Below are positions 8,060-59,635 of a stretch of DNA of 64,000 nt, one piece after another (position 1 is the first letter of the stretch; every line of letters starts with the position of its first letter). Location of the stretch: the NCBI GenBank assembly GCA_964058845.1, contig CAXKVR010000038.1, positions 186,001-250,000 of the forward strand. Reading direction: 5' to 3'. A program made the position numbers and the translations under genes. This DNA is from Carex sylvatica (lineage: Eukaryota; Streptophyta; Magnoliopsida; Poales; Cyperaceae). The notes under the pieces are model-generated. The model saw nothing but the letters and a program-made list of their open reading frames with translations. It was not told where the DNA came from and did not search any database.

Positions 8060-11000
8060 TAGGACGTATAATTCTCTTCTTTCGATGATCTCTATAGGTT
8101 GCCATGTTGACGAACGTATAAATAATGGATCAGCTCCTTACGTATTCAAAATATCTGGTGAGTTTTACCATCGAATATGATTCCTTATTCTAGCACCGAA
8201 TTGTCGCCTATCGTTCTTGCAGTTGTACGTGTTTGACACTGAACATGAGATCCAAAATAGGCTTGTTCCCTTCTCGAATGCAACAAAATCGCGACAAATA
8301 CGTTCTGCTCTGGTCGATTCCTTGATGAAGATGCTCGATACTCACAATGTTCTAATCCGTCATTTCTGTTGTCTACGTGATCGTTATGAACAGTCCAACT
8401 TATGTGATTTCCAAATTCGAATACGTTCTGACAGAGACCATTTACTCCCTACATACTCTGTGCCAATCGCATCCGAAATTCTAGGTTTTGTTGTTGGTGA
8501 TTTATCAGCCGAGCAGAAGGAAAGGGATATCATTGTCGAACACCGTTCTCAAGGATTGAAACGTGTTAGTGTAGAGCATCCTTCCCTCATGGCGTTGCAA
8601 GGCCCTCTTATGTTCTCGTATGGTGAGGATGGTTACCACCCACACATCACTTATGTCACCGAGTCTCCTGGGGGTAGAAAAACTGATCGAAAATTTATCA
8701 CCATGTCCAAATATTATGCTTACCGTTTGCACCCTCGCCATAATGAGGCGGCAACTATTTTTCGTGGAGGTCGATTGTTTCAACAAGTTCTTGTCAACTG
8801 GTATGCCTGTGTTCAGCAATCTATGTTAGAATTCATTGAACGAAATCAATCGATCCTTCGTTGTGAAAAGCTCTGCAACATACGGGCTGCTGTTCTCGAG
8901 GGTGATATGTTTGGGGAAGAAGTTGGTAAACGTATAGTGCTACTAGCTACACACGTTGGCAGCCCACATTATATGTTCCAAAATTAGCATGATGCTATTG
9001 CACTCTGTCGTTATTTCGGCGCTCCTGATTTATTCGTCACGTTCACTTGCAACCCTCAATGGCCTGAGATCAGCAGATTGTTGTTGGATGGATAACGTGC
9101 AAATGGCCGTGCTGATGTGGTTGCCCGTGGACATTAAACAACGTAACTTTCTCAAAAAAGCAATTGCAGGTCATACTCTACTGTCATCTTTTTAATAATT
9201 CATCTTCCTTTGCTACTACATATGCCATTCCATAATTACTCATTCAATATTTTACCTCCTCATTCCTTCCAACATAGTCATTTTGTCTGTCCTTGCAGTG
9301 ATATCTCAAATTGAATTTCAAAAGAGAGGGCTACTGCATGTCCATATCGTCATCTGGCTACATTCAGACGACAAACTACGAATCCCTTCAGATGTGGATT
9401 CCATAATTTATGCTGAGTTACCTAATCCATTGATTGATCCCTCTGGGTACGATGCAGTCACAAAATTCATGCTTCATGGTCCATGCGGTTACCTCAACAA
9501 TCACAGCCCATGTATGAGAAATGACGTATGTTCAAAATAATTCCCAAAGTCCTCATCGTCTACATCTATAGCGGAGGACGGCACTGCTCTTTATCGTCGT
9601 AGGGACAACGGTACTTATTTTGAAAAAAATGGACATCTCTTTACTAACGCGCATGTAATTTCACATAACTTATCGTTAATTATTAAATACCAAGCCCACC
9701 TCAATGTAGAAAAATGCTATAGCCCTGATTTGGTAAAATATCTCTTTAAGTATCTCTGCAAAAGAAGACGATCGCCAGTTGATATATAATTCTCTCACTA
9801 CACATGATCAACCATCATCGCAACAAAAATATTTTTCTCCTAATGAAGTAAAAAATTACCTCGACTGTTGTTGTCTAACTCTTCCTGAGTCAGAATGACG
9901 TATCTTCCAATACGATTTGCACCATAGTTATCAAACTGTAGAGCGATTGTCTGTTCACTTACCCGATGAAAATAATGCACCTTCACAGATTCACAATGTA
10001 CAAGTTTCATCCCATCCAATGATGACTTAGTTCGTACGAAGTTAACCGAATGGTTTGCCTTAAATCAACATGATTCAGTTGCACATTCTTTAACTTATAT
10101 CCAGAAACCTGAGAAATTTGTTTGGGATCAAAAAGGAAAATTCTGGACCCCACAGAAGAAACAACAAAGATTATGTCGTATTTACTATGTTCATCCGAAC
10201 AAGGGGGGTTGTACTACCTACGATTGGTATTGGATCGTGTTAGTGGGACTACCTCATATGAATCACTCTGTACCATTCATGGCATCTTACATGTGACCTT
10301 TAAAGATGCGTGAAAAGCTCTTGATTTAATGAGTGATGATAACGAATGAGTTCTGTCAGTGGAGGATGCGACCTCATGGGCTTCTTCGCATCAACTACGG
10401 AAGTTGTTCATATACATTTTTCTTTATAGTGAAGTATCAAATTCTAAACATTTGTGGAACAAGACATGGCACCTGCTAGGCGATGATGTAATCCACCAAC
10501 TCAATTTTGTATATCCCAACCTAAAGTACAACTTATCTGAACACATACTAAAAAAATTATATTCTCTTTTACCTAGAAAATGACCTCACTCAACTAGGTA
10601 CATCTTTATCCAACTTTCATTTGCCGTTACCATCCCTAGATTTTACTCTCCCCTGGATAACTGTTTGTTGCGAGAACAACTTCCGTATAACCACAGCGAA
10701 TTAGTTGCGGAGGCAGCCGCTTTGTGTGTTTCTCTCAACATTGATCAACGAAGAGCATTCGATGATATCATTGCATCTGTTAATGACTGTTCCGATAAAT
10801 TATTATTTGTTTATGGCCATGGTGGTATTGGTAAAACTTTCCTTTGGCAAGCCATAATTTTCACCGTTAGGTCATCAGGAAATATAGTCTTATCTGTTGC
10901 ATCGTTAGGTCTAGCGGCTCTGTTGCATCGTCATTCGAGGTTTTGAATTCCTATTGATATATTAGAGAAAAGTACATGTGATATCAAACAAGGGACACAA

Positions 11001-52619: not shown

Positions 52620-54081
52620 GGCATTTAATCATAAACATGGATCCTTCCGCTTGCTTTCACTCATGACCTTGTTCTGGCGCCTCTTCCTCATTACCTGGAA
52701 CCCACATAACAGTGGAACGGGTGAGAGATTCGAAAATTCTCTCAGGGCGGAATTCAGTTCTAGTCCCAGATTTTATAAAATTAACTTAATTCTCAAAAGC
52801 ATGAAAATAAAATAAATAATAAATACTCATGCGTTTCTAATGCCATGCAATCCTACAATCATAAACACTTTCATTTTCTTACAAGTTTTCTGTTAGTCCA
52901 TTTATCTTGTCATTCCAATGGGAAGTCCAACCAACATTGGAAAGCCGCTAACCCATTGGGAAGCCCAACCAACAAATGGAGGCCGCCAACTCACTGGGAA
53001 GTCCAACCAACAATGAGAGGATGTCTCACTAGACAGGGAGTCCACCCTACGCTAGATCTTGACTTGTGACGGAAAGTCCAACCAACACCACGTTAACGAG
53101 AGGTCTAGTCGAACACCGGACCCAATGTATACATCATGATATGTGAACATATCGGCCCCTGTTCACTTTAATTATCCGTTCGCATCACGTATATTAATTC
53201 AACACAACACATTTTAAAAGTTTGTTGATCAAACGAATAATCATATCCTAATATTTTGCTAACAAAATCAATCGGTCGTTCGAATTCAACATGCATAATT
53301 CAAATATATAAAAATAAATGCACACAAAATGATAAGTAATAATTTTACAATGTCCAGGAAATCCGCACCTGTTATTGTAGTAGATTCCTATTCGTTCTTT
53401 CGCTCTTTTAGCACTTCAGGATTCAAACCTAAATTACGTAAACACGACTCTAATTAACATCCCATAACAACACTTGTTTATAATATTATTATTTTTAGTC
53501 ATTGTTTTATCTACATGAACATCCGTTTAAAAATAAGTAGAAATACAATAAAATTTAAAATTGTTATCTAATTTAGTTTCTAAACAGAACCTAAAATAAA
53601 ATCAAAAGTTGGTGGCAACTCAGAAATAAATATTATATAATTAATGCATCATAAATTCATTTCACTAAGTTATTTAATCATTCCAATTTTGTCTATCTTT
53701 CATATTGAAAATAATTAAAGTATCTATTTAAAATTGATATAGTTATCTCAAAATATGATTTAGAAGTTAAAGTATAAAGATAAAATTGATGAGAGTTAAG
53801 ATCGATATTTATAAACGTTTGAAACAACAATAAACATGCTGTGTAACATTATTAGGTATAATAATATCAAGAAAATAATAAGGTGAAGACACGTTCAATA
53901 GATGCAAAACCAAAAAATGAACAACAAAGAAACGATTAACATACGATATTATTAACTAACTTATATTTACTACTAATTTATTATTTAATATAACTATGTA
54001 ATTATGACTAATAAACTCTAATTTCAGATTTTAATATAACTAAAGAAGATACTTATTAATGAGAAAATTCCAGATTTTAAT
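52620..54081 (-). mobile_element. Part of a Ty3/gypsy-type LTR, minus strand, left of the CACTA insertion
   Basis: Read on the minus strand, 53480-53100 gives AGTGCTAAAAGAGCG, GGTGCGGATTTCCTGGACAT and GGGTCCGGTGTTCGACTAG, wording typical of plant gypsy LTRs. It holds a short repeat array at 52915-53070. The CACTA element at 54082 interrupts it; the continuation begins at 59636. Left border not found. Confidence 0.6.
52915..53070 (+). repeat. Short repeats GGGAAGTCCAACCAACA in the LTR
   Basis: Five or so copies of GGAAGTCCAACCAACA, some GGGAAGCCCAACCAACA, spaced 25-45 bases apart with filler such as ATTGGAAAGCCGCTAAC. Confidence 0.85.
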
Positions 54082-54104
54082 CATTAGTAGAAAAAACCTC
54101 TTCA

Positions 54105-54285
54105 CCGATCCTTAACCACTGACTGTTTTAAGCAAAGCATCAGTGTTGCTCATACTACACTGACCCTTTTATTAAATAACAATTAGCGTTGTTGATCAAC
54201 ACTGACGCTTTTAAAAACAGTCAGTGTTGGTGTTCAACACTGACTGTTTTTCAAAAAACTGTCAGTGTTGGTTCTTAATTTTTTT
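54105..54285. repeat. CACTA 5' subterminal repeats
   Basis: Alternating CACTGACTGTTTT and AACAGTCAGTGTTGG words, able to pair with one another; likely binding sites for the element's transposition proteins. Confidence 0.88.
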
Positions 54286-54635
54286 TTCCAAATATCATAA
54301 TTAAAAATATAGTATTGGAATTATATTTGACTTTAATTGTAAAAAATATTTTGTAATGAAAATTATATTAGTAATATTTATACAATAATTAATGTTATAA
54401 CATGTTTATTGCTTAATTAAATGATTTTAACAATATAGCATTACATGCATATTGCATATATGACTCACATCTTCTATGCATGAACATGAAATATAAACTC
54501 TTGTTTCGTGAGTTAATGAAGATGCATGAGAATATATCATCCGTGTCGATCGAAAATTTATGTGGGTTGAATTTTATTTAAAAGTAATAATTTATGTGTA
54601 TTATGAAAATTTTGTAAGATATTTAACAATTATGT

Positions 54636-56044
54636 TTATTTTTCATATTTTTTTATTTCATTTTTCATTCTAATTTACATTTTTTTCCTTAATTTTTTTT
54701 CAAATATAATAATTAAAAATATACTATTTTGGTTTGAACATTTCATTGAACACATGTAATACATTAATTTATTTAATAAAATTAAGTTAACACTTCAAAT
54801 ATTTCAATTTTTTAGAAATACGAATTTAATAATTACAAGAAAATGCAAGAAGATGGAGAATCCTAAAGAAAATCACAGGTCATATGAAATGTGATTTCAA
54901 CCGGGATTTTGCGTCCGTTGACAAATTTTAGAAAGGAATCCAATTAAGTAATTTGTGGATATTTTACAATACAATTAAGTCTTCCAAAATTTATAATATA
55001 TTTTTAAACTTTAATTAGTTGTTAAGGAAGTACGTACATAAATAAATAATATGATAATATAATTTATGTTATACAAAATAAAAATAAAAATATGCTAATT
55101 AGAATCTTAGAATTTTATAAATTTAAATTGTAGATAGATTTCATGTTAGTCTTGAGAGGAAAGTGAAATTAATTTCACTTGTATATTTAAAAATAAATTG
55201 TTAGGGATGTATAACTATTTGAGAATAAAAATTTATGCATTGTGCATATTTTGTAAGATATTTAATAATTAAGTTTAATTATTTAAATTGAATTTATAGA
55301 TGCAATAAATATTTTATCGTTGTAATTCATAAAATATAAAAATAGGATTGGAATTATATTTGGAAAGACGTTCGATGTATAATGGTTAAAAGTTTGTCAA
55401 TGTTGGAATGAAAAACCTAGCTAATACAATGTAAATTACTAATTAATTATTTTATCAAAAAATTGTAATACGCGTTTATTAGAATGAACATATTCTATTT
55501 AATAAGTATGATTAGTAATTTACGTGATTAGTGAAATTTAGACAATTAACATTAAATTTTGACTTTAATTTTAAAAAATATTTTGTAATGAAAATTATAT
55601 TAGTAATTAAAAATATACGTGTTTATTTTGTAATGACAATTAACATCAAATTTTGACTTTAATTTACGTGTTTATTTTTCATATTTTTGTTTGTTTCATT
55701 TTCTATTCTAATTTATATTTTTTTCTTTAATTGTTTTTTTTCAAATATAATAATTAAAAATATACTATTTTGGTTTGAACATTTCATTGAACGCATGTAA
55801 TACATTAATTTATTTAATAAAATCAAGTTAACACTTCAAATATTTTAAGTTTTTAGAAATATGAATTTAATAATTACAAGAAAATGCAAGAAGATGAAGA
55901 ATCATAAAGAAAATCACAGGTTATATGAAATGTGATTTCAACCGGAATTTTGCATCTGTTGACAAATTTTAAAAGGAGATCAAATTAAGTAATTTGTTGA
56001 TATTTTACAATATAATTAAGTCTTCCAAAATTTATAATATATTT
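54636..56044 (+). repeat. ~370 bp direct repeat inside the CACTA element
   Basis: 54636-55004 and 55673-56044 are near-identical direct copies (for example ACTATTTTGGTTTGAACATT, GAAATGTGATTTCAACCGG, TTAAGTCTTCCAAAATTTAT), offset by about 1038 bases. A shorter copy pair (TTGACTTTAATT-ATATTAGTAAT words) occurs just outside them. Confidence 0.9.
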
Positions 56045-56144
56045 GTGGCTTAAATAATTACTCTTATTATTTGATAGAAATTTATTATTTAAGTAATAAA
56101 TTATTATTTTTAATCGAAACACATTAATAAAGCTAGAGGTGGAT

Positions 56145-56330
56145 TAACACTGACTCTTTTTTTAAAAACTACCAACACTGACTGTTTTCAAAAAGAGTCA
56201 GTGTTGATTCTTTTAAAAAAAACAATCAGTGTTGGTAGCCAACACTGACTCTTTTTAACAAACAGTTAGTGTTGGTTGCCAACACTAACTGTTTTTATAT
56301 ATTCGAAACCGTCAGTGTTTTTTGATCATT
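56145..56330. repeat. Second internal cluster of CACTA subterminal repeats
   Basis: CAACACTGACTCTTTTT, AGAGTCAGTGTTG and GCCAACACTAACTGTTTTT words as at the ends, but 2 kb inside. Together with the direct repeat it suggests that the 5' end of the element was duplicated, or that one CACTA copy inserted into another. Confidence 0.85.
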
Positions 56331-56457
56331 CAAGCCGGTGTGAATTTCATTTCCCGGGTTTATAACTCAAAATTTCGATCAACCGCGAAGCATTTCCCTT
56401 CTAAAAAACCGTGAAGCTCCATATCTCCGTATCTCATTCTAAAAATCACGAAGCTCT

Positions 56458-56612
56458 CCGCCTCCGCCTTGCTCTCCGCCTTACTATCTCCACCTCCGCC
56501 TTGCACAAACCCTTGCTCTCCTCCTCCGCCTTGCTCCCCGCCTCCGCCTTGCTCCCTGCCTCTGCCTTGCTCCCTGCCTCCGCCTTGCTCTCTGCCTCCG
56601 CCTTGCACAAAC
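56458..56612 (+). repeat. Minisatellite, 18 bp unit, in the captured leader
   Basis: About eight copies of CCTCCGCCTTGCTCCCTG. It makes spurious frames (repeated LLPASA and PPPCS) on both strands. Confidence 0.88.
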
Positions 56613-56801
56613 CCTTGCTTTCTACCCCGCCTCAGCGCCCCTTTGAAGAGTTATTTCGTAAGTTTTGTGACACAGGTCTTGCAAAAACAACTCCAAAGCT
56701 TTAGCTATTCATCAATTTTGTTTGGGCGAAGGAGAAGGAAATGGAGCTCGTGCTCGTTGTTGATTGAATTTGGTTTGTTGAATTGATTTGACCAATCAAA
56801 G

Positions 56802-57304
56802 ATGTATTGCTACTACGCAGATCTTGAGGCAATGGTAGATCCCGATTCGGTCTATCCAATCAGGCTTGAATGCAAAGAGGATGCTCCACCCACCCGATTC
56901 AAGCCCATGGTCTCTTTCCTAATTTATATTTATTTCTTACGGGGTTTTTTTTTTCTTCTTTGTTTCAATTGAAAGGTCTCAACTTTTGAGTTTATGTCTA
57001 TATCAGTACTAACACTAACCTAAATATATACAAGGAATGTGCACTAGTTCAAATAGGCAAACTAATTGATCTACTATCATAACAAGAAACAGTTCATTAT
57101 GAATTAATCTTAGTTACAAAATTTCTGGATTATATTAGTGTGATTGGATTTAGACCAATTATTGTGCACTGCTTAATCAATGTTACAATTTTTTTTTTAA
57201 TGTTGAAGCCTGGGAAAACACTAAGTGCGAGAAGATGGCATGCTTCATTCTCACCGGATGGTCACTTAGATATAGCCGCTGTGCTTCAACGGATACAGCG
57301 TGGG
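56802..57304 (+). pseudogene. Captured fragment of a TBC-domain RabGAP gene
   Basis: Two exon-like blocks: 56802-56909 from an ATG (MYCYYADLEAMVDPDSVYPI, then CKEDAPPTRFKP) to a donor GT, and 57209-57304 (PGKTLSARRW, DGHLDIAAVLQRIQRG) up to GTATAT. The combination ending KP-GKTLSARRW and DIAAVLQRIQRGG is the entry to the TBC domain of plant Gyp7/TBC1D15-like proteins, GAPs that switch Rab GTPases off. The catalytic arginine and glutamine fingers lie further downstream in that family and are absent. Intron retained, so capture was from DNA. CT-rich sequence before the ATG may be the parent gene's leader. Confidence 0.85.
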
Positions 57305-57676
57305 GTATATCTCGTGTTATGATTTTTTCAAAGATTTTAGTTTAATATAGAAATGAGAAAATTTATGTAATTTATTGAAAAGTTATACGCACCAAGTGAG
57401 CTAAACACACTAAAAGAAGCATTTGGAGGATACCCTTACAGAACTGTTCTATATGACAAGGTTTCAATATGGTATACTTATTGCTTTGTTTTTTCTTCTA
57501 TTATTACCAGTGCTTATCGGGCACCAAACACACACAAAAAATATGTTGCTATCTATTTGGTACCTCCTGGTAACCAGCATCAATATTATGGCACCACTAA
57601 ATCAGACCAAATTTTTAGTACTTTTAGCTTTTCTAAACTAAAATAGTAACATAGACCAGTATATCATTCATTTTAG
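57305..57676 (+). other. Unassigned coding-like pieces between the two captured genes
   Basis: 57380-57462 can read LYAPSELNTLKEAFGGYP then RTVLYDK up to a donor-like GT, and 57507-57620 reads SAYRAPNTHKKYVAIYLVPP then GNQHQYYGTTKS. They look protein-like; I cannot place them. They may be a third donor gene or further parts of the two named ones. Confidence 0.3.
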
Positions 57677-59207
57677 AAGAGCCTATATAGATGTTTTCAA
57701 GCATTACTTCGAGGAGAAATGAATTTATACTCAAAAACTCTTTGAACATGAAGAGAGGTTTCACAAAATTCTTCAACTTATTCCAAATAAAAGTATGCTA
57801 ATTTTGTTTTCCTTTTAGTCTTTGGACTATATTTGTAAGGCTGTATACAACTATTGTGTACTTGGCTATTATACACTAAAAGAGTTGCACATTTGGTATA
57901 CCCATTTAAGTTTTGAAACTCTTTTTTTGTGTGCTATTTGTGGCAAAATTATGAATACCTTAACACTTATGGGCTTAAAACTTATAAGATGGTAATAATA
58001 AGGTGTATGAGATGTAGCTGGCAACAAGTCAACTTTAGGATTTTGACAATTATATTTGCAGAAACTAGAGTTTGAAGCATGAGTGGGCTCAAAAAACTGA
58101 TTTAAATATGAGGTTGATTATGAGCCTTATTATTAAAATAGGAGTTGAAACCTTTAAAATTTAATTACAAAAGTTTCTAATTTGTTATTGCTTATGTTTT
58201 GATTTTTTTTGGGTATTGTTTCGGAGCTTGCTGGGAAGTGGCAAGGCAGCAGGTTAGAGCATGTAAATTATGTTCTGTGGGACCAGTTAAAGCATATGCT
58301 TCAGTCTTGAATTAAAAAGGTCTTAACTTGGGCCTTCAATTTATTTCTTTTATACTTTATGTTTATGTGTGTGTGTGTGTGTGTGTATTTCTCCCAAGAA
58401 ATGGGACCGCATTCTGCACACTATCAATAAAATTTGATGTCGAAGAGAGAATGGGTTATATATTGGTTCTTAATTCACTTTGCTTTGTTTTATTGTGTTT
58501 GAATGCTTAGACTCAAGGCCTTAGGAGGTGCACAGAGGAGATTGTTTTCTTATATACCTATCCTAGAATTGACATTCAGGTCTGGCTTTTCTGTTGTTTT
58601 ATTTATTTTTAATTATGTATATTTATTTCAGATATACCCACTTCCTTGAAATGCATTATGTTACTAGTGTTCTGCAAATAAGAGAGCAGTTAGTGCAGGG
58701 TTGGTTACGAAAAGGAACCATTTACTCTTTTGTAGGGGTATAAGGGTAAATTATTTTACATTTAAGGATTACATTTTGTGTGTGTATTTATTTAATAAAG
58801 CTGGGCTGTCTTTTTGGTAAATATAATTCTATTAGTAGCTTTTCAATTTGAAACTGTTGGAGGTTTCTCATGCATTTTTAGGTTACAAAAGGCATGAATC
58901 ATTTGTTAAAAGCGCCTTTTTGCATGCATCCTGGAACAGGTACTAACAAATTTAACAAATTATGGCTGTTAAGTAAATTTATTGTTGTTATCTTCTTATT
59001 GCAAATGCCTCAATAGAGTTTTAGATTTTCTTTTATCTAATTATATTCATCTGTACCAACACTTGCTCAGGTAAATATTTTTTTCTTTATCTAATTATAT
59101 TCATCTTTTTAGATTTTCTAAACTTTTTAATCTATAATCTAATTATAACTTTTGTCTCCAGCTACTAGAAGAGCTTAATGCAAATGCCTCAATTGAAACT
59201 GACAATT
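57677..59207 (+). pseudogene. Captured fragment of DNA primase small subunit (PRIM1/POLA3-type)
   Basis: Primase makes the RNA primers with DNA polymerase alpha. Exon-like blocks in order: about 57677-57792 (FKHYFEEK, stop, then EERFHKILQLIP), 58224-58319 (ELAGKWQGSRLEHVNYVLWD, QLKHMLQS, stop), 58511-58579 (TQGLRRCTEEIVF, LYTYPRIDIQ), 58882-58939 (VTKGMNHLLKAPFCMHPGTG), about 59055-59070 (VPTLAQ) and 59162-59207 (LLEELNANASIE), each next to fitting AG or GT signals. Together they follow the C-terminal half of the eukaryotic primase small subunit without a break in order. Two in-frame stops and the missing N-terminal half with the catalytic acids make it non-functional as primase. Introns are kept, so the capture was from genomic DNA. 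Confidence 0.9.
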
Positions 59208-59479
59208 GTATGTTGCTTAAATTTCATCTCCAAAGCTATTGCTGAAGCAAGATAAGGTCTCCATCTAGTTTAGTTTATGTGTTATGTAAATTGTTTATAT
59301 TGTTTGGATGTTTGTGAATCAATATGATATGTTGTTTATATTGTGTCTTCTTTTGTGTATATTACAATACTATTTGCATGATATTTTATTTAATGATAAT
59401 GAATGTTGAATAGTAATATATATAGCTAGCAAAAATATGGAGGCTAGCCCCGATACAAGTAGAATCATGCCAAAAATTT

Positions 59480-59615
59480 TATGCCAACACTGACTGTTTT
59501 TAGGACCTACACTGACTGTTTTTTAACAGTCAGTGTAGGGTAACCTTCACTGGCGCTAGTTTTACAGACGCCGCTATAACAGTCGGTGTAGAGGTATTTG
59601 AACAGTCAGTGAAGG
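59480..59615. repeat. CACTA 3' subterminal repeats
   Basis: CAACACTGACTGTTTTTAGG, TAACAGTCAGTGTAGGG and GAACAGTCAGTGAAGGGG words, mirror of the 5' cluster. Confidence 0.88.
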
Positions 59616-59635
59616 GGTTTTTTGTACTAGTGAAT

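Follow-up and report, generated by a model that had tools for sequence, protein, structure and literature searches.

A CACTA element of Carex sylvatica with pieces of two host genes, a TBC Rab-GAP and a DNA primase small subunit

Tgm-Express1, a CACTA element of 5.7 kb in soybean, is described as containing pieces of five host loci, which are joined by splicing in many different combinations (Zabala and Vodkin 2007, PMC1947982). Pack-CACTA elements, a kind of Pack-TYPE element, are described from Arabidopsis, rice and maize, and those of maize often hold more than one captured locus (PMC8903248). Moreover, the CACTA elements of Chenopodium are described as containing captured host gene fragments, which precede ORF1 in the 5' region (PMC8978399).

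Here, we analysed a stretch of 64,000 nucleotides of Carex sylvatica (the window; positions below are those of the window unless a contig is named), using for genome searches 64.0 Mb in 950 contigs of unstated completeness. The window contains an element that resembles Tgm-Express1, as summarised in its report (PMC1947982), in being a CACTA element with several unrelated host-gene fragments, introns included, the chimeric RNAs being those of Tgm-Express1. By contrast, Tgm-Express1 has five fragments, lies in an F3H intron and is documented by cDNA (PMC1947982), whereas the window element has two fragments, from other genes, and is known from DNA alone. Like the Pack-CACTA and Pack-TYPE elements as outlined in PMC8903248, it is non-autonomous and has CACTA ends with coding DNA inside; that set came from a genome-wide pipeline, whereas here we describe a few elements with cargo behind a family-wide leader. 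Similarly, the Chenopodium elements, as summarised in PMC8978399, are CACTA elements with host gene fragments; however, these fragments lie upstream of ORF1 whereas the cargo of the window element would lie downstream of the transposase's place. The sequence-only reading that preceded this analysis regarded multi-gene capture as known but the pairing as new to it. That the locus is a rarity is not supported, because both multi-locus capture by CACTA elements and splicing into chimeric RNAs are already published, and elements of this family on two other contigs, C60 and C109, carry other host pieces; the window element is therefore a new example of a known phenomenon. The pairing of TBC and primase in a CACTA element is not reported in the listed titles and abstract openings of the CACTA-primase, CACTA-TBC and Pack-CACTA literature.

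The element is 5,551 bp long (54082..59632, plus strand) and is delimited by its ends and by a target site duplication, AAT, with one copy at 54079..54081 and the other at 59633..59635 (no strand assigned). The left terminal inverted repeat, CATTAGTAGAAAAAACCTCTTCACCGA, starts at 54082 (54082..54108, plus strand), and the right one, the reverse complement of which is CACTAGTACAAAAAACCCCTTCACTGA, ends at 59632 (59606..59632, minus strand); the two are identical at 23 of 27 bases. The left end starts with CATTA, and overall the ends read CATTAG/CACTAG. On both strands of the window, no further matches to the right end at 20 or more of the 27 bases were detected beyond the two ends. The motif ACTGAC occurs inside the element ten times on the plus strand and six times on the minus strand, in three blocks and at a single site in the cargo at 59198. 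These blocks are the left subterminal repeat block (54118..54275, with its ACTGAC sites at 54118-54266), which is built of ACACTGAC motifs in 38-bp tandem units; an internal block of the same ACTGAC-type repeats (56140..56320, with its ACTGAC sites at 56149-56316), which adjoins the upstream side of the leader; and the ACTGAC sites near the right end (59489-59610). Subterminal repeats are present in both orientations near the element ends. Thus, the clear ends, the 3-bp duplication and the subterminal repeats that had been named from the sequence alone were all recovered. Between the left and the internal block lies a 300-bp direct repeat, with an AT-rich first copy (54680..54979, plus strand) and a second copy (55721..56020, plus strand) that is 92% identical to the first.

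A genome search with PF02992 (Transposase_21) gave 114 matches at an E-value of 0.001 or better; none of them was on C38, the contig of the window, and no transposase was matched within the element, as had been claimed. Transposase for the window element would therefore have to come from elsewhere. Based on the end sequence, the 3-bp duplication, the subterminal repeats and relatives with PF02992, the element belongs to the CACTA (En/Spm) elements. Moreover, it fits a Pack-CACTA element, in that no transposase was matched and a genomic fragment of a host gene, the TBC piece, has its donor elsewhere.

The whole element gave 384 genome matches, a good many of which fall in the 5' part; for the stretch 56330-59480 most of the 40 genome matches listed were to the 3' end. 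A block at 56334..56404 (plus strand), common to family members and presumably the native leader of the element, has matches at 16 other genomic places; we aligned the window with seven of these. It is followed by a CT-rich stretch in which units of 18 and 36 bp are repeated in tandem (56405..56705, plus strand) and which is probably part of the element leader; the aligned relatives, too, have CT-rich sequence behind the leader. At the other end, 59276..59632 (plus strand) is the 3' end that is native to the family, with family matches starting at about the first of these positions. The cargo is flanked by the family leader on its 5' side and by this common 3' end.

Judged by coordinates in elements that were not delimited, the relatives on C195, C95 and C199 have the 5' end, a PF02992 transposase and the leader in this order on one strand; those on C95 and C199 look like copies of one element. 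Behind the leader, the relatives at C93:41300 (L042) and on C195 (L043) have a common reading frame, as read by eye, and L042 has a match to the Ulp1-like domain PF02902 (23.5 bits compared to a Pfam cut-off of 20.7). We infer that the element has a second gene, of which the leader is a part, and that host DNA occupies the place of that gene in the window element. The elements on C60 and C109 both start with CACTAG and have perfect 3-bp duplications; the C109 element has CACTA at both ends and ATG duplications, and the C60 element has CACTA on the left, CACTT on the right and TTA duplications. A further element, on C8, has degenerate ends.

The first part of the cargo is the TBC (Rab-GAP) segment (56706..57449, plus strand), which by alignment with a gene on contig C43 consists of an upstream part, exons 1 and 2, intron 1 and part of intron 2. 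Among the 40 matches to 56330-59480, this part has one other genomic place, C43:628954-629723 on the minus strand. Exon 1 including the start codon (56802..56909, plus strand) is identical to the C43 gene at 102 of 108 bases, and exon 2 (57209..57304, plus strand) at 96 of 96. The TBC start had no relevant Pfam or PDB match by itself; the element holds only the first 68 residues, and the match to RabGAP-TBC (PF00566) on the C43 peptide begins at residue 99. The TBC identity of the window piece therefore follows from the homologous C43 gene, the later exons of which, joined with one exon stretch left out, score PF00566 with an E-value of 1.7e-33. As read by eye, the C43 gene runs on into further exons of its own; thus, the TBC and primase pieces are not neighbours at this locus, and the finding that would have spoken against two captures, the fragments lying side by side in the host, was not made there. 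The next C43 match among the 40 is 100 bp long, is to the element 3' end and lies 46 kb away; the element 5' end is not among the C43 matches listed in the whole-element genome search.

A protein-like reading in TBC intron 2, EKLYAPSELNTLKEAFGGYPYRTVLYDK, is open in the element (about 57377-57460) and interrupted by a stop in C43:628947-629027. We considered it as a third captured gene and rejected this, its first part being C43 intron 2, with a stop there. A protein search of the genome detected this type of reading at no place besides the window and C43. The reading looks protein-like, but its origin is unexplained and we do not claim that it is a gene.

The second part of the cargo is the DNA primase segment, which including junctions spans 57450..59275 (plus strand; primase part to about 59210) and has kept its introns. 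On the plus strand, we read a primase exon RAYIDVF...LIPNKS with one internal TGA (57677..57792; the exon-combination analysis described below set its end one base later), a primase-like exon LAGKWQG... with a TGA (58227..58319), primase exons TQGLRRCTEEIVFLYTYPRIDIQ (58511..58579) and VTKGMNHLLKAPFCMHPGT (58882..58939), both supported by Pfam and PDB, and a primase-like exon LLEELNANASIETDN with an arbitrary end (59162..59208), which is outside the Pfam match. The exon at 58227..58319 is presumably primase, from its likeness to plant primases and its position, and so, from such likeness, is that at 59162..59208. The joined primase exon peptides match Pfam PF01896 (48.4 bits, E 1.7e-12) and, in the PDB, 16 distinct sequences labelled as DNA primase or as its small subunit; thus, the lack of a primase match, which would have undone the primase claim, was not observed. 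With three extra primase pieces included and X placed at two stops, the Pfam score was 45.4 bits as opposed to 48.4 without them. Because these pieces lowered the score, their presumed assignment is based on position and on likeness to plant primases. The matched parts correspond to about residues 215-252 and 294-328 of a chain of 420 residues. Thus, what had been called the C-terminal half of primase is indeed a stretch of the second half, but not all of that half. The primase part is decaying.

DNA and protein searches of the 64 Mb genome detected neither a primase donor nor a second copy of the cargo. A Pfam search for the donor was uninformative, the window's own copy being missed by that search as well, and we rejected as donor a place on C19 with weak likeness to primase (41% identity, E 0.089, one stop). 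Since the primase donor was not found in the searched genome, capture of the primase piece from this host rests on homology. Of the parent genes sought, the TBC donor was found, on C43, and the primase donor was not; of the other copies of the element sought, family members were found, and none with this cargo. The central claim of the sequence-only reading, that two unrelated host genes were captured in the same orientation with introns, is supported, for TBC by the C43 gene and for primase by PF01896 and the PDB matches.

We consider it very likely that the locus is a non-autonomous Pack-CACTA element with pieces of two unrelated host genes, a TBC Rab-GAP and a DNA primase small subunit. An ancestor element would have taken up the TBC piece as genomic DNA, introns included, and the primase piece likewise as genomic DNA with introns (the order and route of the two captures we infer). 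Both pieces would have come to lie in sense between the leader and the 3' end common to the relatives, where these have a second gene, with the leader as the presumed start of that gene. The element would have moved in trans by means of transposase from related elements. If transcription began at the leader, the transcript could splice TBC exons to primase exons and would mostly encode the short TBC start peptide. A chimeric TBC-primase RNA from the leader through both pieces is plausible judging from the sequence, but we do not expect a chimeric enzyme.

Differences between the TBC piece and the C43 gene are unevenly spread. In the 5' part of the piece, 19 of 246 aligned bases differ from C43, and in the 3' part the number is 8 of 410 (Fisher p 0.0008; one pairwise alignment, with 56925-56975 left out and cut points set after the profile was seen). 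One simple capture does not explain this unevenness; conversion, a double capture or a second allele may lie behind it. Specifically, the TBC piece and the C43 gene might have exchanged sequence after the capture by gene conversion, or the TBC stretch might have been captured twice. We regard this as a possibility rather than a likelihood: the shift in divergence lies near 57040, with 57040-57449 being ~98% identical to C43, introns included, compared to ~92% for 56716-57039; however, it is judged by a single Fisher test on one alignment with cut points chosen afterwards, and the 5' part could stem from another allele or from a paralogue. Conversion or double capture adds to the Pack-CACTA explanation and is not a competitor to it.

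In a different account, the element is a functional chimeric gene, in which a leader-driven spliced RNA, through a short TBC or TBC-primase peptide or through small RNAs, would act on the donors. The pieces are in sense order, the ATG is kept, exon 2 equals the donor over its 96 bases, and the splice positions named by the sequence-only reading, 57304, 57677 and 58511, do sit at GT/AG boundaries; moreover, chimeric splicing is reported as demonstrated for Tgm-Express1 (PMC1947982). TBC exon 2 ends in phase 0. If 57304 is joined to 58511, so that two primase exons are skipped, the frame is preserved and the TBC-primase reading is 115 or 118 aa long. However, joining 57304 to 57677, where the first primase exon starts, breaks the frame and leads to a stop after 22 residues; therefore, the first primase exons must be skipped for a longer in-frame TBC-primase peptide. 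Even so, the longest reading over 16 combinations of the listed exons is that of 118 aa, which consists of 68 aa of TBC, 23 aa of exon 58511-58579 and a remainder that is read from 59162 on; inclusion of exon 58882-58939 yields the 115-aa reading. With other AG acceptors, located before that first exon of primase, readings reach at most 155 aa, and these pass through non-primase sequence. The TBC domain proper is absent from every chimeric reading. Finally, there are two in-frame TGA codons, in two of the primase exons, and TBC exon 1 has six changes relative to C43, four of which read as amino-acid changes. A functional chimeric gene is very improbable.

It is very improbable that a host chimeric pseudogene, with a TBC start beside a primase piece, existed beforehand and entered the element as one locus in a single capture: such a joint locus elsewhere is conceivable because the primase donor was not found in the searched genome, but the C43 TBC gene continues into its own exons and not into primase, and the cargo occupies the stretch from leader to 3' end, where other family members carry different content.

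The C60 element (L033, C60:9300-14700) contains exons of an RNA-silencing gene, that of a small RNA degrading nuclease (L033 3139-3505, plus strand); this cargo matched PDB 5z9x with an E-value of 4.3e-17 in the PDB search only, the joined peptide being without a Pfam match. The nuclease stretch is present again at C60:159944 with 93% identity; the cargo of the window element is in one place only, that of this sister in two. The C109 element (L031, C109:92400-98900) contains an exon of a LysM receptor kinase, CERK1-like (L031 5040-5177, plus strand), with an E-value of 1.1e-13, likewise in the PDB search only and with a peptide that has no Pfam match. The LysM stretches on C109, C93 and C97 are identical over the 173 bases common to all three and may be recent copies or assembly duplicates; none of these three places is among the matches of the leader search. 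Verified host cargo is in sense in three of three distinct elements (window, C60 and C109), a pattern that rests on these three elements only.

A protein-kinase piece in the C8 element (E 3.4e-4) is below the Pfam cut-off and was not counted as verified, and three other C8 peptides had no Pfam match. The C8 element has cargo parts in common with C710, C64 and C517. When the whole cargo stretches of C60 and C8 were scanned with X at the stops, no Pfam match was obtained; reading exon by exon was needed. The peptides from C70 and C91 had no Pfam match, and reading of the ORF lists gave no verified host exons in C8, C70, C262, C91, C195, C93 and C95. C48 and C233, as well as C155 and C16, are possible donors for the cargo of other elements.

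In the window element, exon shuffling by a CACTA element can be dissected cleanly, since one of the donor genes is available, and the element points to a family with different host fragments in the same slot behind the leader. It also opens the testable question of whether capture is linked to the element's second transcription unit. We tentatively propose, as an idea that is rather unlikely at present, that the family is a standing exon trap, in which host DNA in sense replaces the second gene behind its leader. If so, many members would make chimeric RNAs from one element promoter, and gene capture would be linked with a defined transcription unit instead of being random in position.

Elsewhere in the window, a Helitron remnant at 8217-8984 (plus strand) has an open frame of 256 aa that matches Helitron_like_N (PF14214, E 2e-13).
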